DNA of 51,585 bases from a virus: IMG/VR virus record IMGVR_UViG_3300031951_000235, positions 1 to 51,585 of that record; one strand, 5' to 3'. The first letter of the stretch is position 1; the number at the start of each line of letters is the position of its first letter. The notes under the pieces are model-generated. The model saw nothing but the letters and a program-made list of their open reading frames with translations. It was not told where the DNA came from and searched no databases. Made by a program: the position numbers and the translations under genes. Positions 1-44,996 of this stretch are shown here, piece by piece.

Positions 1-925
1 ATCTAAAATTATTTAAATTATCACCAGAGTTATTATCATCCATTGTAATAATTGAGCCGCCTAAGCCATTTGTAGATTTCCAATTGACACTATAATAAAA
101 TTTAGGAAATACTGCAACTGGTTTGCCACCAGTTAATGACCATACTTCACTCACTACCCATTCTGCTACAAGTTTTATTTTAATTTCCATATCAGGTAAC
201 GTCATCGGAGCAATGTATTTTTCTTTTCCTACTACTTGAGCGTTGATAATAAAAGATCTTTCGTTATCTGTTATTTCCGGAAGTACTGTAATATTTGCTT
301 TGATACCTTTCGATTTAATATAATTAGCTGCAGCATCTCCTCGCTTTTGTGCTAATATTTTGTTTCCCCATTGTGGATCTGATTTTTGTTTTGCATCAAA
401 TTCAGCTTTTGAAGCTGGCGTTATGTTGCCTGCAGCATCAAATTTTAATATACCATTATAATCATGATCTATTCGTTTTTTGCCTGTGTTATCTTTAGTA
501 TTTGGCGTAGTAGATGCTATAGCTTTTGAAGCTCTAGAAACAATTTTAATATTAATGGCAGGATCATCTAAATTAACGCCTTGTTCTTTTAATGTCTCTA
601 ATGCTTTATCTATCTCTGCTTTTACCTCAGCAGCGTTTGACATACTATCGATAGTAACAAAATTATTCCAGAATGAAACTGGTATACGCAATGGTTCATT
701 TGTTACATCTTTATATGCATTAGTTTTTATTAATTTAGTGCGACCTTCGTTTGCAACTTCTGTTTCCCATTGTCTAAAAGCATCCATTGCAGCTTTTTCA
801 TTTTTCCAACGTTCGATATAGTCAATATCTTGTTCCGTTAAAAATTTCTTAAGTTGATTTACATCTAGATTTTTTGGAGAAAATCTCATGAAATTTTCTA
901 CTATAGTATTTTGTAAATTTTTCAT
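1..925 (-). CDS. OmpA-like domain virion protein, 3' end cut by window
   Basis: The frame is open from ATG at 925 to the left edge (308 residues seen, no stop), so the C-terminus is missing. Residues 1-31 form a leader with an RF-x-x-KNL segment ending in FLTEQ; LTE (29-31) fits the T4-type prohead protease consensus (L/I)xE. Further in, a stretch around ILAQKRGDAAANYIKSKGI resembles the OmpA-family peptidoglycan-binding signature in which an Arg follows a Leu-rich helix start. The neighbouring minus-strand proteins have the same leader style and one has a similar OmpA-like signature, so these look like members of one set. A role as an internal or virion protein that binds peptidoglycan is inference. 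The ATG follows a directional ATATTTATAT element by 27 bases, which supports this start. Confidence 0.6.
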   Translation of the reverse strand, partial: MKNLQNTIVENFMRFSPKNLDVNQLKKFLTEQDIDYIERWKNEKAAMDAFRQWETEVANEGRTKLIKTNAYKDVTNEPLRIPVSFWNNFVTIDSMSNAAEVKAEIDKALETLKEQGVNLDDPAINIKIVSRASKAIASTTPNTKDNTGKKRIDHDYNGILKFDAAGNITPASKAEFDAKQKSDPQWGNKILAQKRGDAAANYIKSKGIKANITVLPEITDNERSFIINAQVVGKEKYIAPMTLPDMEIKIKLVAEWVVSEVWSLTGGKPVAVFPKFYYSVNWKSTNGLGGSIITMDDNNSGDNLNNFR

Positions 926-952
926 ATGTATTTATATTTTTAGTTATTTACA

Positions 953-960
953 TATAAATA
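953..960 (-). promoter_or_regulatory. Candidate late promoter element (TATTTATA, minus strand)
   Basis: Read on the minus strand this is CATATTTATATG. It lies 27 bases upstream of the ATG at 925. It is one of the few copies serving a minus-strand gene, and its orientation follows that gene. The surrounding 131-base divergent spacer (926-1056) is otherwise AT-rich, with no other feature seen. Confidence 0.45.
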
Positions 961-1056
961 TGTATCAGTATAAAAACCGCCTTATATATAAAATACAAAC
1001 TATTATTTGGATTTTTGAAAAATATTACTTATTATAATAGTATAAAAATAAGAGAG

Positions 1057-1716
1057 ATGAAAAATATTTTAATCGTAGCATTTTTAGTTTTTAACAATAT
1101 TACATTTGCACAAAATGTATATGCTGTTAACAATGTATCTAAATTAGTTAATAACAATGTTTATTTTGGAAAAAAGGAAACAAGCATTGTAACTAAATAT
1201 GATAGTTTAACGCGCTGCGCAATCGAACGATTTATTGTTGATCGTTTTAATTATTACCGAAAACAAAAAGGTGCTCAACCTTTAGTTTGGGATGAAACTC
1301 TTCGACCGATGACTTACCATCATGTTGTCTACCAAAGATTAACTAAAACACAGGAACATAGTGAAGATATCAATGTTCCTAATTTCATTGAATTAAATTT
1401 TGCAGATCGCGCTAAAACATTGGTTGGATATGATAAGTATAACTTATTTAGTGAAGGATTAATTAGTATGTTTAATAACATCTCCGTTCGTCCTGGACAA
1501 AATACAACACCAGTTACAATTAAACAAATTGTAGATAAATTTTTTACAGCTGGATATGGTTATAATACATGTGCTGCGCACTGGAATCAAATTATGGAGC
1601 CGCAATGGGATCGTATTTTTATTTACTATGATTTCAATTGGTTAGATAGTAATGCAATAGAGAGTAATAGTTACAATAAAGCTAACGTTACAGTTCAATT
1701 CGCAGATGCTAAATAA
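1057..1716 (+). CDS. Secreted CAP (SCP/PR1)-like protein
   Basis: 219 residues. The ATG at 1057 is preferred to an in-frame TTG at 1015 because it opens directly into a signal peptide (MKNILIVAFLVFNNITFAQ), whose FAQ end is typical of Bacteroidota secreted proteins. The mature part begins a helix around IVDRFNYYRKQKGAQPLVWD, followed by the EHSED and FSEG segments and then AAHWNQIMEPQWDRI. This order (helix with R-x-x-x-G-x-x-x-LxWD, a His-Ser-Glu patch, then H-W-x-x-I-x-x-P) resembles the CAP superfamily found in secreted proteins of all kingdoms. The molecular function of bacterial CAP proteins is mostly unknown. The gene meets the minus-strand gene tail to tail with no spacer. It may be expressed in the host envelope during infection or be carried by the virion. 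Confidence 0.5.
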   Translation: MKNILIVAFLVFNNITFAQNVYAVNNVSKLVNNNVYFGKKETSIVTKYDSLTRCAIERFIVDRFNYYRKQKGAQPLVWDETLRPMTYHHVVYQRLTKTQEHSEDINVPNFIELNFADRAKTLVGYDKYNLFSEGLISMFNNISVRPGQNTTPVTIKQIVDKFFTAGYGYNTCAAHWNQIMEPQWDRIFIYYDFNWLDSNAIESNSYNKANVTVQFADAK

Positions 1717-3027
1717 TTAAAGAGTTCCTTGACCTACATATACACCACTTTGATAAACATCGATATTTGTTAATATTCCATCTTTATCAAAAATGTATAA
1801 TTCCCCATCAAACCATTTATTATTCTTGATCACACCGGCCCAAGCCAAATCTTGAGATCTATTTGGGTCGGTTGCTGCAACCATTTGCGTATAATCTTTA
1901 TTCCAATACAATCTTTGATAATCTGGTATTTTTGAGAATTGTAATGGAACAGGTATTACTTTAGTAGGCTTACCTCCTGATTGTGGTGCTGTCGATACTT
2001 GACAGTTAATAGATAGTAACCAAGCTGTTGGACCTAAAGGTGCATAAATTTCTACAAAATATTCTGTATTTGGAACATTTCCTAAATCAATATTAATTGC
2101 AGACGGGGCTTTAATAGTCCCATCATATCCATTTTTAGTTTTACTATTTAATTCAGATAGTATAGTACCAAAATCTACTTGTGCCGATACTGGCGTATCA
2201 GACACATATCCAGTGTCATGTATTATCTTAGTTGTTTTTTTAGTTTTATCATATTGCGTAACTACTAATCTATCTGGTATATATGCCGGTATAAAATTCA
2301 TAGTTACCTGGCCTGATTTTGTTTCTAATTTGGATCTAAATGCTATAGGATTACCTGATAATCCATTGGCTTCTAAATTACCATTACATTTTGCAATTGG
2401 TATTTTAACATCGGTATATGATGGAACTGTATATTTCGTTGCAGCTAAATCAAATACTTCTACTTTTTTAGTTTTTGGATTTGTGATATTAGTTTTAGGA
2501 GTTTGTGCATTATATGTAGTTATAGGAACCACAACAGTTACCATTTTAGCAGTACCAGCACCATTACCTGTTTTTGTGATAGTAACTTCAGCAGGTAGCT
2601 TTACGAATTTTTTAATGATATATTCAATACCTTGAGCTCTACGATCTGCTAATGTTTGATTTGAAACCGTAGCACCATTTGAATATGAAAAATCTACTTG
2701 AGCTTGATTCCAATTGGTTCCATCTCCTGGAATTTGTTTTGTAGCCGGAGTGCTGCCATCAGCTGATGCCGATATCGTAATAGCACCTTTAACTAATTTT
2801 TTAGCTATAATTGCAGATTTTAACGTATTGATAAAATTTTGCAAATTAGGAGTTAATTGACTAATTGCTGTTATTTTATCAAATGATGTTATATTTAATT
2901 GTTTTGGATTAATTGGCAATACGATATTATCTGGAAAACTATCCTTAAATTCATAAGTTGTCGTTTGTTCAGTAAGTAAACGTTTATTATATGTTGTTTC
3001 TAACAATAATTTTTTTAAAAATATCAT
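1717..3027 (-). CDS. OmpA-like domain protein with cleavable-type leader
   Basis: 436 residues. The start overlaps the stop of the upstream LysM gene by four bases, so the two are translationally coupled. Residues 1-20 form a leader ending in RLLTEQ, with LTE at 18-20 matching the prohead protease consensus. Residues about 80-170 resemble an OmpA-like fold: a beta segment (ITISASADG) and then NQTLADRRAQGIEYIIKKF, which carries the Asn and Arg spaced as in the OmpA peptidoglycan-binding motif. The rest is beta-rich and not recognised. It probably belongs with the partial gene at 1-925, which has a similar leader and motif. Virion-associated peptidoglycan binding is inference; a plain structural role is possible. 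Confidence 0.55.
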   Translation of the reverse strand: MIFLKKLLLETTYNKRLLTEQTTTYEFKDSFPDNIVLPINPKQLNITSFDKITAISQLTPNLQNFINTLKSAIIAKKLVKGAITISASADGSTPATKQIPGDGTNWNQAQVDFSYSNGATVSNQTLADRRAQGIEYIIKKFVKLPAEVTITKTGNGAGTAKMVTVVVPITTYNAQTPKTNITNPKTKKVEVFDLAATKYTVPSYTDVKIPIAKCNGNLEANGLSGNPIAFRSKLETKSGQVTMNFIPAYIPDRLVVTQYDKTKKTTKIIHDTGYVSDTPVSAQVDFGTILSELNSKTKNGYDGTIKAPSAINIDLGNVPNTEYFVEIYAPLGPTAWLLSINCQVSTAPQSGGKPTKVIPVPLQFSKIPDYQRLYWNKDYTQMVAATDPNRSQDLAWAGVIKNNKWFDGELYIFDKDGILTNIDVYQSGVYVGQGTL

Positions 3028-3401
3028 GGATATACTTTTAATATTTCATTTTTATCTATAGGTAAATAAAAAGTCATACCTGGTTTAATTAAGTTTGGAT
3101 TTTTAATTTCCGTATCCGCCCCCGGCATATCAACATTAAGACTTTTTAATGAATTTGTAGATTTAACAATTTGTTTTACAAAATTCATAATTTGTTTGTC
3201 TGTTGGGGTTGTAACTTGTGCATATTGTTGCATCCATTTAGTAGCAATTGACCATAATGTATCATCTTGTACTACTTTATATGACTTTACTTCAGTAGAT
3301 CCAGCTGGCGCTGCTAATGTAGTTCCGTTATTCGGATCTGGTTGTTCTTGTAAATTTTTTACTTTAAATCTACGTAAATTTTCTGCTAAAATATGTTTCA
3401 T
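3024..3401 (-). CDS. LysM domain protein with cleavable-type leader
   Basis: 125 residues. A LysM-like region runs from about residue 40 (SYKVVQDDTLWSIATKWM) to about 115 (LIKPGMTFYLPI), with a helical insertion that makes it longer than a standard 45-residue LysM. LysM domains bind the glycan chains of peptidoglycan. The N-terminus reads MKHILAENLRRFKVKNLQEQ; LQE at 17-19 followed by Q is a prohead protease-type site, and the RF-x-x-KNL segment also occurs in the leader of the gene at 1-925. It is the first gene of a minus-strand pair with the OmpA-like gene downstream. T4 internal proteins carry a short N-terminal capsid targeting peptide ending in a gp21 site; by analogy this may be packaged in the head, or it may be a tail protein. 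Confidence 0.65.
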   Translation of the reverse strand: MKHILAENLRRFKVKNLQEQPDPNNGTTLAAPAGSTEVKSYKVVQDDTLWSIATKWMQQYAQVTTPTDKQIMNFVKQIVKSTNSLKSLNVDMPGADTEIKNPNLIKPGMTFYLPIDKNEILKVYP

Positions 3402-3427: not shown

Positions 3428-3437
3428 AAATAAATAT
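3428..3437 (-). promoter_or_regulatory. Candidate late promoter element (ATATTTATTT, minus strand)
   Basis: On the minus strand this reads ATATTTATTT, 26 bases upstream of the LysM gene ATG. Spacing and orientation match the copy upstream of the gene at 925. Confidence 0.45.
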
Positions 3438-18397: not shown

Positions 18398-19063
18398 ATG
18401 GGATATTTAGATAATTCTAGTGTTACAGTTGACGCAATTTTAACATTAAAGGGACGTGAACTTTTAGCTAAAGGTGGTAATGCATTTAACATTACACAAT
18501 TTGCAGTAGGTGATGATGAAATTGATTATTCGTTATGGAATCCAGATCATCCACTAGGAACTGCATATTATGGTGTTATTATAGAAAACATGCCAGTAAC
18601 TGAAGCAATTCCGGATGAAACTCAAGCATTAAAATATAAATTAGTAACATTACCAAAACAAACAACTAATATTCCTGTTGTTAATGTTGGCAATACTTCT
18701 ATTATATTAGCCGCTCCGGGAGATAGTTCGATTATTTCGCCAAATACAAGTAATTTCCAAGGCGGTAACTCTACATTAGGATATACAGCAATTCTTTCTG
18801 ATTCAACAGTTGCAGACATACAAGTTACTAGAGCATTACAAAATTCAGTTCTTCCGACTACACCTCGTTTCGTTGGCGATAATGAAGATGCACAAAGTGT
18901 AGCAGTAGCAGGATTTGAATTCCGTATTATTGGAAAAACTCAAATGCTTGAAGATAAAACTGCAACAATTACAATAATCGGAAATGAAACAGGTGGAAGC
19001 GTTACAATTAACTTAACCGTTAAGCGTGTAACAACTGCAACAGTTAATAGTGCAACTGCATAA
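18398..19063 (+). CDS. Tail structural protein, conserved phage type
   Basis: 221 residues. The start (VDAILTLKGRELLAKGG, then FNITQFAVGDDEIDY) resembles a widely shared phage structural family with an N-terminal segment of this pattern. The C-terminal third is an Ig-like or beta-sandwich repeat rich in Thr and Val (TATITIIGNETGGSVTINLT). The function within the tail is unknown. It begins a transcription unit with the next gene, 11 bases on. Confidence 0.6.
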   Translation: MGYLDNSSVTVDAILTLKGRELLAKGGNAFNITQFAVGDDEIDYSLWNPDHPLGTAYYGVIIENMPVTEAIPDETQALKYKLVTLPKQTTNIPVVNVGNTSIILAAPGDSSIISPNTSNFQGGNSTLGYTAILSDSTVADIQVTRALQNSVLPTTPRFVGDNEDAQSVAVAGFEFRIIGKTQMLEDKTATITIIGNETGGSVTINLTVKRVTTATVNSATA

Positions 19064-20457: not shown

Positions 20458-22038
20458 ATGTCTCTAATTAATATAGAAAATTCAAATCAATCGCCATATG
20501 ATGGAGCATACCCATCTGTATTTAAAAAAATAGATATTTCAGATGTACGAGTAAATTCATTTCAATCTTATAAGAAATGGACATTATTATCTGGCAGTCT
20601 TACTAGTAGTGCATTACCGTTGCAAGGTATATATTCATCTATATTGCCAGCATTAGGATCTGAATTAACATATAATGATGCTAGTAATATTAATGGTAGT
20701 TTACAATCAGTAACATATTATTCTATTAATCATTTTTATTATAAAAATAAAAAAGAACCATTAAAAACTTTTGGACCGACCGATTTAACTAAAACTTCAA
20801 AATTTTTATATCAATCAGCTTCTATATTATCTATTCCACAAAATAAAATTGGAGAAGGTATTAAAGCTGCATCATTTTCATTTACGTCATCAGTATCTGG
20901 GTCATATGCATCGGATAGATATGGTAATATATACGATATTAATATTTTACCATCATCAATTATATCCGGTGTTAAATTTTATGAAGGATTTAATGAATAT
21001 TTTGACATTAATAGAATTGAATTTAATAAATGGGCAAATATAACATTTGAACCTGGTATTACTACAACAAACGGTAGACAACTTCCTATAGGATTATCAA
21101 GTAAATTTTCGGGCACGGGATATATTGAAACGTCATTAGATGGTTATTATAATAGAAATAATGATTATGCAATTTCATTTTTTATAACGGCATCTAATTC
21201 AACTGCAGATAATCAATTAATAATTGCAAAAGCAAGTTCATCAGTTGATCCAGTTTTTCCGTTTAAAGTTGAATTAAATTCTAACGATCAGATATTATTT
21301 ACAGTAGGCGGCTCAACATCATTTACTACATTTATAAGTTCGTCAACAAATGTAACAAGTTCATGGAATCATATTTTATGTCAAAAATCTGGTAGTTATA
21401 TTCAATTATATGTTAATGGTACTTTAGAATCACAAGCAACAAGTACATTGCTGTATGACCCGATGTCACCATTTAGTGCTTCAGCACGTATTGATAATGT
21501 ACACCCACTTAAAATAGGGGGCTATGATGCTAGTAGTTACAATCTAACAGGCTATTTAGATGAAATTAGAGTCTTTAATAAGTCACTTACAACATCGCAG
21601 ATAAGTGCGTTAAACGACCGAACTGAGGGTGGTACTGTTTTACAAACTAGAAATGTAGGTAATGTTTTTAGTAAACAAGGCATTATTGTATTTTCTAGTC
21701 CAGATTATAGAATACATGATATTTTAAAAACCCCGTATACTGCATCATATCGTAGTACTGTTAGTATTCATGAATTAAGCATATTATCAAAAATTGATGC
21801 CGGCGATTTTAATATGTCAACAAATATTACATTAACACAAGATAATGATCAAACATATTATTCATTTGTATCCGGTAGTGATTTTTCTCCATATATTACT
21901 ACGATTGGTTTATATAACGATTTCGGACAATTGTTAGCAGTTGCAAAATTAGCACAACCGATTAAAAAACGTAGCGATGTTGATATGAACTTTTTAATAC
22001 GTTTAGATTTGGACAATAATATTGTATTTAAAGGATAA
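20458..22038 (+). CDS. Tail appendage protein with LamG-like domain
   Basis: 526 residues. Residues about 215-380 form a LamG/concanavalin-like lectin fold: SGTGYIETSLDGYYNRNNDY, AISFFITASNS, SWNHILCQKSGSYIQLYVNG, then LTGYLDEIRVFNKSLTTSQI. Such domains often bind carbohydrates and, in tail proteins, host surface glycans. The C-terminal module YITTIGLYNDFGQLLAVAKL is shared with the gene at 19075. The N-terminal part is beta-rich and unassigned. It may form the receptor-facing part of an appendage whose base is the preceding protein. The stop overlaps the start of the kinase-like gene. Confidence 0.65.
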   Translation: MSLINIENSNQSPYDGAYPSVFKKIDISDVRVNSFQSYKKWTLLSGSLTSSALPLQGIYSSILPALGSELTYNDASNINGSLQSVTYYSINHFYYKNKKEPLKTFGPTDLTKTSKFLYQSASILSIPQNKIGEGIKAASFSFTSSVSGSYASDRYGNIYDINILPSSIISGVKFYEGFNEYFDINRIEFNKWANITFEPGITTTNGRQLPIGLSSKFSGTGYIETSLDGYYNRNNDYAISFFITASNSTADNQLIIAKASSSVDPVFPFKVELNSNDQILFTVGGSTSFTTFISSSTNVTSSWNHILCQKSGSYIQLYVNGTLESQATSTLLYDPMSPFSASARIDNVHPLKIGGYDASSYNLTGYLDEIRVFNKSLTTSQISALNDRTEGGTVLQTRNVGNVFSKQGIIVFSSPDYRIHDILKTPYTASYRSTVSIHELSILSKIDAGDFNMSTNITLTQDNDQTYYSFVSGSDFSPYITTIGLYNDFGQLLAVAKLAQPIKKRSDVDMNFLIRLDLDNNIVFKG

Positions 22039-22577
22039 TGATGATACGATTAAAACAACTTCTTCGCGAAATGTCTGAAAAAGATTTAGATCGTTGTTTA
22101 GATAAAATACGAAACAAACAATTTCGTTTTATAGCAGCAGGCGACAATGGCAGAGTTTACGAAATTGATGGAGAAGATAAAACATTTAAAATCACTAAAG
22201 AACAAGATGAATATGAAGTTGCAGATATTATTGTAAATCGCTATAATGAATTTACAACATTTATTCCAGTATATTATGTTGACGGTAAAAACATGTATAT
22301 AATGGCGAATGCTTCAGAATTACCAATACGCATTAAAAAATCAATTGATATGTTTATGCAAGATTTTGTTTTGTTTGCTCGCGACGAAGGCGGCGAAGTT
22401 TCTATATTTGATTTTATTTCCGAAACTGATAGTTTAGATCCGATACTAGATAATTTTTTAAATGCATTATATGAAGATGTTAAAAAGTTAAATATTCCGG
22501 AATTTGATTTAGATATTGATTTTCGTTCAGAAAACATCATGATGTGGAATGGTAAAATGGTAATGGTTGATTGGTGA
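22038..22577 (+). CDS. Miniature protein-kinase-like protein
   Basis: 179 residues. Kinase-fold landmarks can be placed: a glycine-loop-like segment at 35-42 (GDNGRVYE), a Lys at 51 in KTFKITKEQDE like the VAIK lysine, a hinge-like stretch YYVDGKNMYIMANASEL, and then DIDFRSENIMMW, where D161 and N166 have the D-x4-N spacing of HxDxxxxN (the His position is D159). MVMVDW gives D178 in the DFG-like position. The chain ends one residue later, so the usual C-lobe is absent. It may be a minimal phosphotransferase, a pseudokinase or a binding protein. The N-terminal LLRE could be a protease-type site. It is coupled to the tail appendage gene. Confidence 0.55.
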   Translation: MMIRLKQLLREMSEKDLDRCLDKIRNKQFRFIAAGDNGRVYEIDGEDKTFKITKEQDEYEVADIIVNRYNEFTTFIPVYYVDGKNMYIMANASELPIRIKKSIDMFMQDFVLFARDEGGEVSIFDFISETDSLDPILDNFLNALYEDVKKLNIPEFDLDIDFRSENIMMWNGKMVMVDW

Positions 22578-37132: not shown

Positions 37133-38971
37133 ATGGCGTCATTAAGAAAACGTTTACAAAATCTATTTTCTACGAATGTTATTGTTCGTGCATATGGAAA
37201 AGATAAATTAAAAGTAGTTGATACTAATCGATTACAAAGTGTCGGTAACTTAGCTCAAACTAAAGTTGCAGACAGATACACTAGAATGCACGGTGCTAAT
37301 AAGCACATGGTTGGCGGAATGGGTGGATATGATTCCAACTATTACCAACAACAACATCGTATGCAGCTTTATGCTGATTATGAGATGATGGATAAAGACC
37401 CTATTATTAGTTCCGCTTTAGATATTTATTCGGATGAGTCTACATTATCTGATCAATTTGGAGATTTATTAACAATTAAATGTAATAATACACAAATTCA
37501 AAAAATACTTTATAATTTATTTTATGATGTTTTAAATATTGAATTTAATCTTTGGACATGGATTCGAAACATGACAAAGTATGGAGATTTCTTTTTAAAA
37601 TTAGATATTGCTGAAGAAATTGGTATATTAAATGCACGGCCGTTATCTAGCTATGAGTTAGAACGATGGGAACAATATGACGAAGTTACTGGCGAATATA
37701 CTATTAAATTTAAACATGTTTCTGATATTAGAAATGAATTTGATACATTTGAAATAGCACATTTTCGTATGTTATCTGATTCTAATTTTTTACCATATGG
37801 TAGATCAATGTTAGAAGGTGCTCGTAAGGAATTTCAAAAATTAATGATGATGGAAGATGCAATGTTAATACATCGTATCATGCGAGCTCCAGAAAAACGT
37901 ATTTTTAAAATTGATATTGGTAATATTCCACCGAATGAAGTAGATTCATTTATGGAACAAATTATCAATAAAATGAAAAAAGTTCCACATATAGATCCAC
38001 AAACCGGTAATTACAATCTTCGATTCAATCTAAATAATATGTTAGAAGATTATTACTTGCCAGTACGAGGAGGTAACTCAACTACTTCGATTGACACATT
38101 ACCAGGAATGACATTTACTGGTTTAGATGATATTGAATATGTAAAAAATAAAATGATGGCTGCCTTAAAAATTCCTAAGCCATTTTTAGGATATTCTGAA
38201 GCAGTAGAAGGTAAAACTACATTAGCATCGATGGATATTCGTTTTGCTAGAACCATCGAACGCGTTCAAAAAATCGTTGTTTCAGAATTAACTAAGATTG
38301 CAATAGTACATTTATATGCACAAGGTTTTGAAGGAGAAGATTTAATTGGATTTGATTTAGAATTAACAGCACCTTCGATTGTTTATGATCAACAAAAAGT
38401 TGCTTTGATGACTGAAAAAATGACATTAGCAACAGCAATGAAAGATAGTAAATTAGTTTCTGATAAATACATATATGAATTTATATTTAATATGTCTGAA
38501 GATCAATGGTTGCAAGAAAGAACTAATGTTATTGAAGATTTAAAACTTCGATTCCGTCAAAATCAAATTGAGCAAGAAGGAAATGATCCTACAATAACGG
38601 GAGTTTCATTTGGTACACCACACGATATGGCCTCACTCCATATGTCATCTAATAATGTAGAAGAAAAAGATAAAGGAGGCCGTCCACCAGAAGGAATCAA
38701 ATTTGGACAACATAAAAATGCATTAGGATGGGATCCAACGGGCGGCAAAGAAATTAAACAAGCATTTAATCCAGAAAATCAAAAATCTACATTTTTACCT
38801 AATACTAGAACTGATCGAAAAGTAAAAGTTTTTTCTTCTGAAAATTTAGATTTTTTAAAAAATATGAAGAATAAAAACAAAACAATTATTACCGAATCAT
38901 TAAAAACATCATATGAACGAAGAGAAGACACAGATTCGGGTACGTTGTTAGATGAAAACAATATTTTATAA
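37133..38971 (+). CDS. 20: Portal protein, gp20-like
   Basis: 612 residues, near T4 gp20 (524) with a longer tail. Typical segments are MDKDPIISSALDIYSDESTL, FNLWTWIRNMTKYGDFFLKL, FLPYGRSMLEGARKEFQKL and LIHRIMRAPEKRIFKIDIGN. The portal forms the vertex dodecamer through which DNA is packaged. The C-terminal 110 residues are polar and Asn/Lys-rich. It is followed by a promoter-like element. Confidence 0.95.
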   Translation: MASLRKRLQNLFSTNVIVRAYGKDKLKVVDTNRLQSVGNLAQTKVADRYTRMHGANKHMVGGMGGYDSNYYQQQHRMQLYADYEMMDKDPIISSALDIYSDESTLSDQFGDLLTIKCNNTQIQKILYNLFYDVLNIEFNLWTWIRNMTKYGDFFLKLDIAEEIGILNARPLSSYELERWEQYDEVTGEYTIKFKHVSDIRNEFDTFEIAHFRMLSDSNFLPYGRSMLEGARKEFQKLMMMEDAMLIHRIMRAPEKRIFKIDIGNIPPNEVDSFMEQIINKMKKVPHIDPQTGNYNLRFNLNNMLEDYYLPVRGGNSTTSIDTLPGMTFTGLDDIEYVKNKMMAALKIPKPFLGYSEAVEGKTTLASMDIRFARTIERVQKIVVSELTKIAIVHLYAQGFEGEDLIGFDLELTAPSIVYDQQKVALMTEKMTLATAMKDSKLVSDKYIYEFIFNMSEDQWLQERTNVIEDLKLRFRQNQIEQEGNDPTITGVSFGTPHDMASLHMSSNNVEEKDKGGRPPEGIKFGQHKNALGWDPTGGKEIKQAFNPENQKSTFLPNTRTDRKVKVFSSENLDFLKNMKNKNKTIITESLKTSYERREDTDSGTLLDENNIL

Positions 38972-39014: not shown

Positions 39015-39863
39015 ATGACTAAATTGAAACATTCGAAATATAAGAACACTGGCATTCTTTTTGAACTGTTAGTTAGAAAATTAACATCAGAAACATTATC
39101 TTCAGATAAATCAGTTACTATTGATATAATTAAAAAATACTTCGGTAAAAATACAGAACTAGCTAAAGAATTACAATTATATAATTCTTTATTAAAAGAA
39201 CAATTCCGCAGCGAAGCTCAAGCATTAGATTATATTCGTACTATTAAATCAACTCATAACAAATTGAATCATTCTTTACTAAGACGTCAGCGATATAATT
39301 TAGTTAAAGAAATTTCAGAAAAATTTATTTTTGCAAATATGGCTAAAGCTCATATTAACAATTATAAAAGTTTAGCTTCAATTTATATGATTTTTGAATA
39401 TGACGAATCTTCTAATCCTAAACAATTATTAGAATGTAAAAATGTAATCATTAAAAATAATATGATGGTTGAAAAACGAGTTGAAATAAAAGATCCACTC
39501 ATTGAAGCATTTGAATCACAGCCAAAAGATATTAGATTATTAACATATAAATTAATGATTGATAAATTCAATGATAAGTATTCCGTTTTAGACGAATCAC
39601 AAAAACGTTTATTGAATAAATATATTATTAATGTTAATGATACTGAAGCATTAAAAGAATATATTGAAAAGATTATTCCTCAAATTAAAAATGAATTATC
39701 GATTCAAGCAAAAGTAATCTCTGATAAAGCAACACAAATTAAAGTTCAAAAACTTTCAGAAATGCTTTGTACTGTTGAAAATATGAAAACAATTAAAGAA
39801 TCTCACGTACTTTCATTATTACGTTATTTTGATTTAATTAAAGAATTGAAAGGTTTGCATTAA
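39015..39863 (+). CDS. Conserved head-module protein, unknown function
   Basis: 282 residues, mostly helical and Lys-rich. The N-terminus (HSKYKNTGILFELLVRKLTS) recalls a segment I remember from proteins beside the portal gene in several large phages. No catalytic motif. Position between portal and protease suggests a head-assembly role. The stop overlaps the next start (TAATG). Confidence 0.65.
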   Translation: MTKLKHSKYKNTGILFELLVRKLTSETLSSDKSVTIDIIKKYFGKNTELAKELQLYNSLLKEQFRSEAQALDYIRTIKSTHNKLNHSLLRRQRYNLVKEISEKFIFANMAKAHINNYKSLASIYMIFEYDESSNPKQLLECKNVIIKNNMMVEKRVEIKDPLIEAFESQPKDIRLLTYKLMIDKFNDKYSVLDESQKRLLNKYIINVNDTEALKEYIEKIIPQIKNELSIQAKVISDKATQIKVQKLSEMLCTVENMKTIKESHVLSLLRYFDLIKELKGLH

Positions 39864-40330
39864 TGAGATCGCTTTTGAAAGAAATGGAAGAAAAATTCAT
39901 AGAAATTGAAGAAGAATTAGCATCTGAAGAACAAGATTCTGATTTAGAAGAACAAAATGTAACTAGTGCAATAGCTGGTTATAATACTCCAAAAGCCTTT
40001 GCAAAGAAACCTAATAAAAAAACTGCAGAACAATTGGGTTATAAAATAGTTCAAGAAGCAATGGATGAAAAATATGAAAAGCTAATAGAAAGCTATAGCG
40101 ATTTTAAAAAAATTGGAGATAAAAAACCTTCGATGCATATTAAAGATTCTATCAGAGAGATTGCTAAAAAATTACAAGAAATTGAAACAATTGTAAATCA
40201 TACATCAAAATATAAGAATGAATCTGGTATTGCATCTTCACAATACGGTCCAGCTGCAGGAAAAGCAATGACAAAAATTGCCGAACGATTAACTAGAATA
40301 TCAGAACGTGTAAGAGCATTAGGGGAGTAA
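39863..40330 (+). CDS. Small prohead-type protein with protease site
   Basis: 155 residues. Acidic helical N-terminus (residues 1-30) ending in LEEQ (28-31), a protease-type site. The motif SAIAGYNTPKAF follows at about 35, resembling a G-Y-x-T-P-x-A-F motif I remember just after processing sites in phage head proteins. The C-terminal half is helical. Probably a core protein, comparable in place to T4 gp67/gp68. Ends one base before the protease gene. Confidence 0.6.
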   Translation: MRSLLKEMEEKFIEIEEELASEEQDSDLEEQNVTSAIAGYNTPKAFAKKPNKKTAEQLGYKIVQEAMDEKYEKLIESYSDFKKIGDKKPSMHIKDSIREIAKKLQEIETIVNHTSKYKNESGIASSQYGPAAGKAMTKIAERLTRISERVRALGE

Positions 40331-40331
40331 T

Positions 40332-40964
40332 ATGTCAAAGAATTTAATTGTAGAATACATACCATTTAAGCCAGTTGGTTCATTAACTGAGCAAAGTGGT
40401 GCTGCATATGGAATTCCAGGCGGCTTTGTTGTTCAAGGAGTTTTACAGAGAGCTGGCGCAAAAAATCAAAACGGACGAGTATATCCTAAACATATTCTAG
40501 AAAGAGAGTGCCAACGTTATCAAAAAGAATATATTGATCAACATCGTGCATTAGGCGAATTAGATCACCCAGAATCATCAATTGTTAACTTAAATAATGT
40601 TTCGCATAATGTTTTAAAAATTTGGTGGAATGGTGATGATTTATTAGGAGCTGTTCAAATTTTAGAAACACCATCTGGCAAGATTTTAAAAGAATTATTT
40701 AAAGCGGGTATTACATTAGGTATTTCGTCTCGAGGTTTAGGATCAGTCAAAGAATTACGTAGTGAAGGCGTAGTCGAAGTTCAAGAAGATTTTGAATTAA
40801 TATGTTGGGACTTCGTTTCTAATCCTTCTACACATGGGGCTTTTATGCGGCCTACGAGCATGAATGAATCTGCGAATAAAAGTATTCAATTAAATAAATA
40901 TAATAAAGTAAACGACATCATTACATCAATTTTATGCGAAGATGGTAAATGTAGGATAATATAA
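40332..40964 (+). CDS. 21: Prohead core protease, gp21-like
   Basis: 210 residues; T4 gp21 is 212. It cleaves scaffold and capsid proteins at (L/I)xE. Candidate catalytic residues are H79 in GELDHPESS, S132/S133 in LGISSRGLG and D160 in CWDFVSNPST; their order and spacing resemble T4 gp21. RVYPKHILERE and FMRPTSMNE also match the family. The N-terminus has LTEQ (18-21), a likely self-cleavage site that would remove 20 residues. It is flanked by small proteins carrying similar sites. Confidence 0.93.
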   Translation: MSKNLIVEYIPFKPVGSLTEQSGAAYGIPGGFVVQGVLQRAGAKNQNGRVYPKHILERECQRYQKEYIDQHRALGELDHPESSIVNLNNVSHNVLKIWWNGDDLLGAVQILETPSGKILKELFKAGITLGISSRGLGSVKELRSEGVVEVQEDFELICWDFVSNPSTHGAFMRPTSMNESANKSIQLNKYNKVNDIITSILCEDGKCRII

Positions 40965-43349: not shown

Positions 43350-44996
43350 GTGAGTATTTCAAATTTATTACAAACAAACGATTTCGTACAACGCAACCAA
43401 GCTAAAGCGTTGGCATCGAAATGGGAAAAGACCGGTCTATTAGAAGGTCTTCGTGGCGAAACCGAAAAAGCAGGTATGGCCCAATTGCTTGAGAACCAAG
43501 CACGTCAATTAGTAAAAGAAGCTTCTTCAACTGGTACATCAGCTGGTTCAGAAGAGTGGGCAGGTGTAGCTCTTCCATTGGTACGTCGTATCTTTGCTGA
43601 GTTTGCTGCTAAAGAATTCGTTTCAGTTCAACCAATGAACTTGCCATCAGGTCTTATTTTTTACTTAGACTTTAAATATGGTACAGCTCAACCAGGATTT
43701 GACGCTGACAATCTTAACCGTACAGGTGATCCATTTGGTTCTCCAAATGCTGATGATTCAATGTTTGGTGTAACAACAACTTCAGGTGATCCATCGGGTG
43801 GTCTTTATGGTGCAGGTCGTTTTGGTTATTCAATCAACGAAACAGCTAGCATTGTTTCTGCAGCAACTGGTTCTCAACCAACAGCCGCACAAGTAAATGG
43901 TGATTCTACATATTCTGGTTCATCTGATTATAAAATGATAACAGTAAATGTACCTACGGAAGCAGATTTATATGCAGTTCGTTCATTTATTCTTCGTTCT
44001 GGTTCAGCTCAAACTAATATCGTACCAGTTCAAGCATTTTCATCAATTGACAGCAATTACACTGCATCATTTGTTGTAACAACTACTCAAGCAGCTGCAA
44101 TTTCATCTTCAATTGGTGCTGGTAATTTGCGTTTAGTATATAGCAAACAACCAACTGATATTACACGTGGTGATTTTGAAGACAACAAAGGTGCATTCTC
44201 TAACGGATACAATACTGATATTGATATTCCAGAAATTAACCTTGAAATGCAATCTGAGCCAATCGTTGCTAAGACTCGTAAGTTGAAAGCAGTTTGGACT
44301 CCTGAATTTGCTCAAGACTTAAATGCATACCATTCAATTGATGCTGAAGCTGAATTGACTTCAATGTTGTCTGAGTATGTATCTATGGAGATCGACTTAG
44401 AGATCTTAGATATGTTGATTGCAGCAGCTCCTACAACTGAGTATTGGTCAGCTCGTAACAATACAATTTGGAATGGTACTTCATTTACAACTTTAGCAGC
44501 TGGTACAGCTACTCCAGGATTAGGTGATGGATTCTACAACACTCAAGGTGGTTGGTTCCAAACTTTAGGTACTAAACTTCAAAAAGTATCTAATAAAATT
44601 CACCAAAAAACATTGCGTGGCGGTGCTAACTTCTTAGTAACATCTCCTGCAGTTGCAACTATCCTTGAGTCTATCCCAGGATTTGCTGCTGACACAGATG
44701 GTACTAAAATGGAATTTGCGGCAGGTGTACAAAAAATTGGTTCAATCAATAACCGTTACACTGTATACAAAAACCCATACATGTTAGAAAACGTAATCTT
44801 AATGGGATTCCGTGGTGCACAGTTCCTTGAAACAGGTGCTGTATTTAGCCCTTATATTCCTTTGATTATGACACCGCTTGTATATGATCCGATTAACTTC
44901 ACTCCACGTAAAGGTGTTATGACACGTTACGCGAAGAAAGTAGTTCGTCCAGAATTCTACGGAAAAGTATACGTACACGGTCTTAACACTCTTTAA
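43350..44996 (+). CDS. 23: Major capsid protein, gp23-like
   Basis: 548 residues; T4 gp23 is 521. Family segments: EWAGVALPLVRRIFAEFAAK, then VSVQPMNLPSGLIFYLDFKYG near residue 95, MTPLVYDPINFTPRKGVMTR and KKVVRPEFYGKVYVHGL at the end. A leader of about 57 residues ends in VKE-A (55-57), probably the gp21 cleavage point, though the P3 residue is Val rather than Leu or Ile; LLE sites lie at 30-32 and 46-48. Codons are enriched for C-ending forms compared with neighbours, as expected for a highly expressed gene. Start codon is GTG. Confidence 0.95.
   Translation: MSISNLLQTNDFVQRNQAKALASKWEKTGLLEGLRGETEKAGMAQLLENQARQLVKEASSTGTSAGSEEWAGVALPLVRRIFAEFAAKEFVSVQPMNLPSGLIFYLDFKYGTAQPGFDADNLNRTGDPFGSPNADDSMFGVTTTSGDPSGGLYGAGRFGYSINETASIVSAATGSQPTAAQVNGDSTYSGSSDYKMITVNVPTEADLYAVRSFILRSGSAQTNIVPVQAFSSIDSNYTASFVVTTTQAAAISSSIGAGNLRLVYSKQPTDITRGDFEDNKGAFSNGYNTDIDIPEINLEMQSEPIVAKTRKLKAVWTPEFAQDLNAYHSIDAEAELTSMLSEYVSMEIDLEILDMLIAAAPTTEYWSARNNTIWNGTSFTTLAAGTATPGLGDGFYNTQGGWFQTLGTKLQKVSNKIHQKTLRGGANFLVTSPAVATILESIPGFAADTDGTKMEFAAGVQKIGSINNRYTVYKNPYMLENVILMGFRGAQFLETGAVFSPYIPLIMTPLVYDPINFTPRKGVMTRYAKKVVRPEFYGKVYVHGLNTL

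Follow-up and report, generated by a model that had tools for sequence, protein, structure and literature searches.

Modular N-terminal leaders on otherwise unlike proteins of uncultured T4-like phages are probable capsid-targeting propeptides

In bacteriophage T4 the prohead protease gp21 cleaves after L/I-x-E, and in the N-terminal signal of the internal protein IPIII residues 4 and 7 serve targeting while residues 8 and 10 serve processing (PMC9026906). The internal proteins of T-even phages are diverse defence proteins with the targeting sequence alone in common (PMC3012670). The first 30 residues of phage P1 DarB are sufficient to direct a reporter into the capsid (PMC9024508), and the ejection proteins of SPN3US and phiKZ carry N-terminal propeptides that are removed by the prohead protease (PMC5694885). 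The DNA analysed here, the whole of IMG/VR record IMGVR_UViG_3300031951_000235 (51,585 nucleotides, nt; hereafter the window), is a 51.6-kilobase (kb) fragment of a T4-like phage that carries portal, terminase, gp21-family protease and capsid genes. At its left end, three genes that run opposite to the tail genes encode proteins with short N-terminal leaders, and sequence comparison makes it likely that these leaders are T4-type capsid-targeting propeptides with a large, mostly orphan cargo repertoire.

A preliminary description of this DNA reported three minus-strand proteins with leaders of 19-31 residues ending in LTEQ or LQEQ, two of which have RF-x-x-KNL in common, and the open reading frames (ORFs) and leaders are exactly as described. 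The leaders comprise 19, 20 and 31 residues and end in LQE↓Q, LTE↓Q and LTE↓Q, respectively (the arrow marks the predicted cut), and the common segment reads RFKVKNL and RFSPKNL. The features are as follows (lengths in amino acids, aa):

3345..3401, minus strand: leader MKHILAENLRRFKVKNLQE of the LysM protein, the canonical long form, predicted cut before Gln20
3024..3344, minus strand: predicted mature LysM protein, a cargo of 106 aa (whole ORF 3024-3401, 125 aa)
2968..3027, minus strand: leader MIFLKKLLLETTYNKRLLTE of the 436 aa protein, predicted cut before Gln21
1717..2967, minus strand: predicted mature portion of the 436 aa protein (ORF 3027-1717)
833..925, minus strand: leader MKNLQNTIVENFMRFSPKNLDVNQLKKFLTE of the 511 aa protein (ORF 925-2, which runs off the window)
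2..832, minus strand: predicted mature portion of the 511 aa protein, truncated by the window end

The leader of the 436 aa protein is a variant with two LxE sites and no RFxxKN. In the 511 aa protein, which is complete in a contig of the same phage species (L001:9896-11431), the KNLxE site is lost and FLTE↓Q takes over 9 residues downstream.

With the 125 aa LysM protein as query, contigs were returned that matched solely at residues 1-20, with 85% identity, and among them were three consecutive unlike genes each bearing a leader (MKHILAENLSRFKAKNLNEQ, MKNILKENMRRFHTKNLPAD...SLQEN and MKHVSGILAENMRRFATKNLPEQ). Leader-only searches of IMG/VR yielded 119 and 294 loci. The LysM-type leader has the form M..(N/H)ILAENMRRFxTKNLxE (leader peptide MKHILAENLRRFKVKNLQEQ, with Glu at P1). 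The leader search in related phages that the preliminary description had proposed was carried out by scanning all fetched DNA for [ED][NS][LMIVF].RF..[KR][NK][LMI]; the motif was N-terminal in 236 of 236 cases and internal in none (1.18 million ORF residues). This exclusivity was not built in, since the searches set no condition on position. Deduplication left 112 distinct leader proteins, which fall into 52 cargo clusters with undetectable similarity behind the leader, and in an unguided alignment of the 52 representatives the leader was the sole conserved part. The leader is therefore a short N-terminal segment common to proteins with unrelated mature parts, as expected of T4-type propeptides, and several copies occur per genome. 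Each of the seven leader contigs above 90 kb encodes the gp21 protease, as do the window and 3 of 9 shorter contigs, the last a proportion expected for fragments.

The leader-bearing cargo families come from uncultured phages. No match to the LysM-type leader was found in 50,697 phage isolate records, where a 23-residue exact leader scores E=2e-7, so that a close copy would have been detected; nor was there any match in 84,980 prokaryote genomes, and a search of a literature library turned up no paper containing the leader strings. The absence from all prokaryote genomes searched bears on the idea that the leader is a secretion signal by which the producing cell exports the proteins to its periplasm. 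A periplasmic location would fit LysM and OmpA-like domains, and a neighbouring CAP-domain gene does have a Sec-type signal, but on inspection the leaders prove short, charged and devoid of a hydrophobic core, unlike the MKNILIVAFLVFNNITFAQ of the CAP gene, and export is highly improbable.

The conservation of the leader ends at the predicted cleavage site. Column entropy is 0-0.5 bit at key positions through the Glu of KNLxE, then rises to 2.7 bits one residue on and exceeds 3.5 bits beyond that. The Glu is retained in 105 of the 112 leaders, which thus end in the gp21 motif L/I-x-E. Where the Glu is lost, as in the 511 aa protein, a further [LI]xE follows within 15 residues in 7 of 7 cases, versus 22 of 105 leaders with the Glu (p=4e-5, inflated because many contigs are related); the background rate for such a site is 9%. 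The invariant leader Arg is encoded by all six codons and synonymous codons vary freely, indicating that selection acts on the peptide. Another LxE occurs first inside the leader (ILAE↓N), so that the block NMRRFxTKNLxE is flanked by two potential sites. In the 34 leaders with the first Glu at residue 10, positions 4, 7 and 8 are mostly L/I/V/F (compare T4 MKTYQEFIAE); other leaders are shorter or longer.

The same type of site recurs in head genes of the window. Within the first ~38 residues, [LI]xEQ is present in 5 of the 50 window genes, against some 3.4% per gene expected from its rate in the gene interiors, and [LI]xEQ leaders in the window are beyond chance. The five genes are the three adjacent leader genes, the prohead protease and the gene directly upstream of the protease. 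The head genes identified in the window are:

37133..38971, plus strand: gp20-like portal protein (Portal_T4, E=4e-67)
39863..40330, plus strand: putative prohead core protein, probable scaffold, with many [LI]xE sites and LEEQ at residues 28-31
40332..40964, plus strand: gp21-like prohead protease (Peptidase_S77; PF03420, E=2.2e-34)
43350..44996, plus strand: gp23-like major capsid protein (sequences compared manually)

The protease begins MSKNLIVE↓YIPFKPVGSLTE↓Q and so has a leader-type site, MSKNLIVEYIPFKPVGSLTE↓Q. In the capsid protein, QLVKE57↓A corresponds in position to the T4 gp23 cut FLTE↓A by manual comparison. The terminase was found by Pfam scan, and the nearest counterparts of the portal are in Microcystis phage Mel-JY01 (51%) and Flavobacterium phage immuto (48%).

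The LysM and 511 aa genes head transcription units, and both are preceded by the same motif at -36:

3430..3437, minus strand: copy of ATATTTAT, 36 nt upstream of the LysM gene
954..961, minus strand: copy of ATATTTAT, 36 nt upstream of the 511 aa gene

On the gene strand, ATATTTAT lies within 60 nt of the start of 14 genes in the window, 35 in G001 and 30 in G003; shuffled sequences gave 1.4, 3.5 and 2.6, respectively, and the other strand gave 0, 0 and 1. A motif of this type precedes 82 of 111 leader genes versus 132 of 940 other genes at the same loci (74% versus 14%; the p-value of 5e-39 is inflated because the contigs are related). Since portal and tail genes are among those marked, the motif is a probable late promoter of this phage group. 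Strand-specific copies of ATATTTAT(A/T) lie 15-36 nt before virion genes, for example at 18398, 20458, 28263, 31206, 37133, 46091 and 49433. The T4 late promoter TATAAATA was tried as a candidate and is not above chance across the whole window; its reverse complement is the ATATTTAT-type motif found before virion and leader genes.

These data also bear on the proposal that the leader serves docking or regulation without any link to the head, escaping cleavage and binding, for example, a protein of the host or the phage once infection has occurred. Such a function would suit the leader genes that adjoin the replication genes gp32 and UvsX (L005 and L006). It leaves unexplained why conservation ends at the Glu, why a lost site is replaced and why the leader genes carry the promoter motif of virion genes, and it is quite improbable.

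The first half of the leader, M(I/K)(K/R)LKx(I/L)LxE, occurs by itself as a leader of ~10 residues on some 34 further distinct proteins. The short-form pattern gave 48 N-terminal cases, long leaders included, and 8 elsewhere; as it was picked from the long leader, its conservation is partly built in. In related phages the short-leader proteins include a GH24 lysozyme with LysM, M23 proteins and Phage_lysozyme2 tail-lysozyme proteins. The window has one such gene:

22038..22577, plus strand: gene with the short leader MIRLKQLLRE↓, the first half of the long leader

This gene lies in the structural region and is conserved (also L188:1480-2025 and L180:7621-8163); its product has, by eye, a kinase-like start, RFIAAGDNGRVYEIDGEDKTFKIT.

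The Phage_lysozyme2, M23 and GH24-LysM enzymes with short leaders, together with a promoter-like motif that tail genes also possess, are what could be expected if the leaders directed virion proteins to the tail or baseplate, or acted as assembly-chaperone tags, the cell-wall enzymes being tail lysozymes. However, the [LI]xE boundary and the compensating sites indicate the head protease, an enzyme that in T4 works within the prohead; the window protease and the neighbouring core gene carry the same N-terminal site type, and 50 of the 52 cargos are unlike any known tail protein. A tail or chaperone function is accordingly improbable.

Head targeting and cleavage of the leaders are favoured because of their modularity, N-terminal exclusivity, the conservation edge at the Glu, the compensating sites, the presence of gp21 and the virion-gene motif. 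The head targeting and gp21-type cut put forward in the preliminary description are thus well supported by the sequence tests, whereas its cell-wall set does not hold as a general role of the cargos, as detailed below. In the proposed mechanism, leader proteins would be synthesised late, and the N-terminal leader would dock each protein on the scaffold core during prohead assembly, after which the shell closes. A gp21-type protease would then cut after the Glu of [LI]xE with loss of the leader peptide, and the mature protein, freed inside the head, would exit with the DNA at infection.

Several points weigh against this mechanism. Packaging in the head, cleavage and ejection are predictions from sequence. 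The mature cargos have a median net charge of -4 and are thus mildly acidic, in contrast to the internal proteins of T4, which the literature calls basic (PMC9026906). Comparison of T4 MKTYQEFIAE with the leaders by eye revealed no similarity past the residue pattern. An N-terminal [LI]xE alone is common, being present in ~25-37% of genes in leader phages and T4, and per genome it shows a mild excess only, in T4 and immuto likewise; as it is so widespread, the site by itself is weak proof and was not used as stand-alone evidence. Finally, the relatedness of the contigs inflates the p-values.

The identity of the cargos was only partly as first described, namely two OmpA-like proteins and one LysM protein. 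Pfam confirms a LysM domain for the 125 aa protein (25.9 bits against a cut-off of 20.9). The OmpA match of the 511 aa protein is weak (Pfam E=0.084, under the cut-off). In a Foldseek search with a low-confidence model of this protein the top 13 PDB matches were all OmpA-like peptidoglycan-binding domains (E 0.016 and above), in agreement with the Pfam match but likewise weak; the putative OmpA-like domain lies at about residues 88-231. The OmpA-like assignment of the 436 aa protein is unsupported: there was no Pfam or credible PDB match, and its AlphaFold model is unusable (predicted local distance difference test, pLDDT, 35). Among viral contigs both proteins have only close copies as homologs, which accounts for the poor structure prediction. 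The 511 aa protein was also considered as an ortholog of leader proteins of 504-532 aa at the same locus elsewhere; this was rejected, since clear alignment of the two compared was limited to the leader.

Across the 52 leader groups, LysM and one domain of unknown function (DUF) alone reach E 0.005, and PHROGs gave two matches. A recognised peptidoglycan-binding domain is present in 1 of the 52 cargo families, that of the window LysM protein, and the suggestion that cargos generally bind peptidoglycan was therefore rejected. Domain matches indicate that in the window at least one, and perhaps two, cargos probably bind peptidoglycan. A cell-wall role is plausible for the window proteins and some of the short-leader enzymes, not as a general role. 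The T-even internal proteins are the closest functional model for the leader cargos. More speculatively, the leader could mark a large repertoire of virion-injected effectors of uncultured T4-like phages (at least 52 near-orphan families) in which the window trio acts in the host envelope, bound to peptidoglycan, and not, as T4 IPI and Alt do, in the cytoplasm; this extension is doubtful.

Flavobacterium phage immuto, a T4-like isolate, has a leader of its own. Two unlike immuto proteins (NC_055915, 25061-25456 and 111675-112139) start with MKKQILSEQF(R/K)RMQxLAGIITE↓S (leader family MKKQILSEQFRRMQKLAGIITE↓). In IMG/VR this type was found 81 times at the N-terminus and twice internally, on 39 cargo groups, while in the phage collection it is confined to immuto isolates. 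It resembles the LysM-type leader in its order of elements (LxE, a hydrophobic residue, R-R/K-R plus M/F, and [LI]xE), its N-terminal position and its many unrelated cargos; unlike that leader, it has the core RRMQKLAG rather than RRFxTKN. In L216:3264-4256 and L235:3012-4021 a second immuto-type copy lies inside the protein at about residue 300, possibly through fusion of two leader genes.

Some further features of the leader loci were observed. A fourth gene of the window cluster (L001:11509-12453) begins MKPKYNKTTISLAIPAILSE↓Q, a possible leader, and contains the hydrophobic segment IMLGAQIATAIIPVVGPYISAGIG; it has homologs in two other phages (L195:13188-14450 and L176:18054-19388), and its product matched no known domain. 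In five phages, leader genes and oppositely oriented genes for small, seemingly Sec-secreted proteins alternate in a hotspot beside the UvdE gene; at least three of the small proteins match the CAP domain, two of them above the Pfam cut-off. The small-protein and leader loci are:

window: 1015-1716, plus strand
L193: 9454-10059
L195: 12636-13172
L181: 7021-7434, 8374-8793 and 9696-10259
L189: 488-997 and 2719-3745

It is conceivable that injected and secreted partner proteins are paired in this hotspot. Leader genes also lie in tandem in L189:3858-6541 and L188:19023-19757 (G003 119023-126541); their cargos diverge and a second site, SAKLILTE↓Q, is often present, which suggests repeated duplication and cargo exchange.

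Phage-injected proteins are normally identified in isolated virions by proteomics, an approach that cannot be applied to uncultured phages. With a modular leader and a defined cleavage site, injected proteins could be recognised from sequence alone. The leader points to dozens of orphan families which are probably active in the first minutes of infection, in anti-restriction, takeover or at the envelope. It is also a new candidate packaging tag, with its own version in a cultured relative, phage immuto.

Like the T4 internal-protein signal, which has 10-19 residues, the leaders described here are N-terminal, end in [LI]xE, are common to otherwise unlike proteins and occur with a protease of the same gp21 family; a subset also has hydrophobic residues at positions 4, 7 and 8 and Glu at position 10. 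They differ in their unrelated sequence and in a longer form with two LxE sites around NMRRFxTKNL. They are attached to at least 52 cargo families, whereas in T4 the signal comes as two copies that match closely and a single variant. Their P1' residue is mostly Gln, Asp or Ser, not Ala, and their cargo is acidic. By its published description, P1 DarB is alike in having an N-terminal head-targeting segment. In SPN3US, by contrast, four propeptides exceed 100 residues and no 19-residue modular tag is described.

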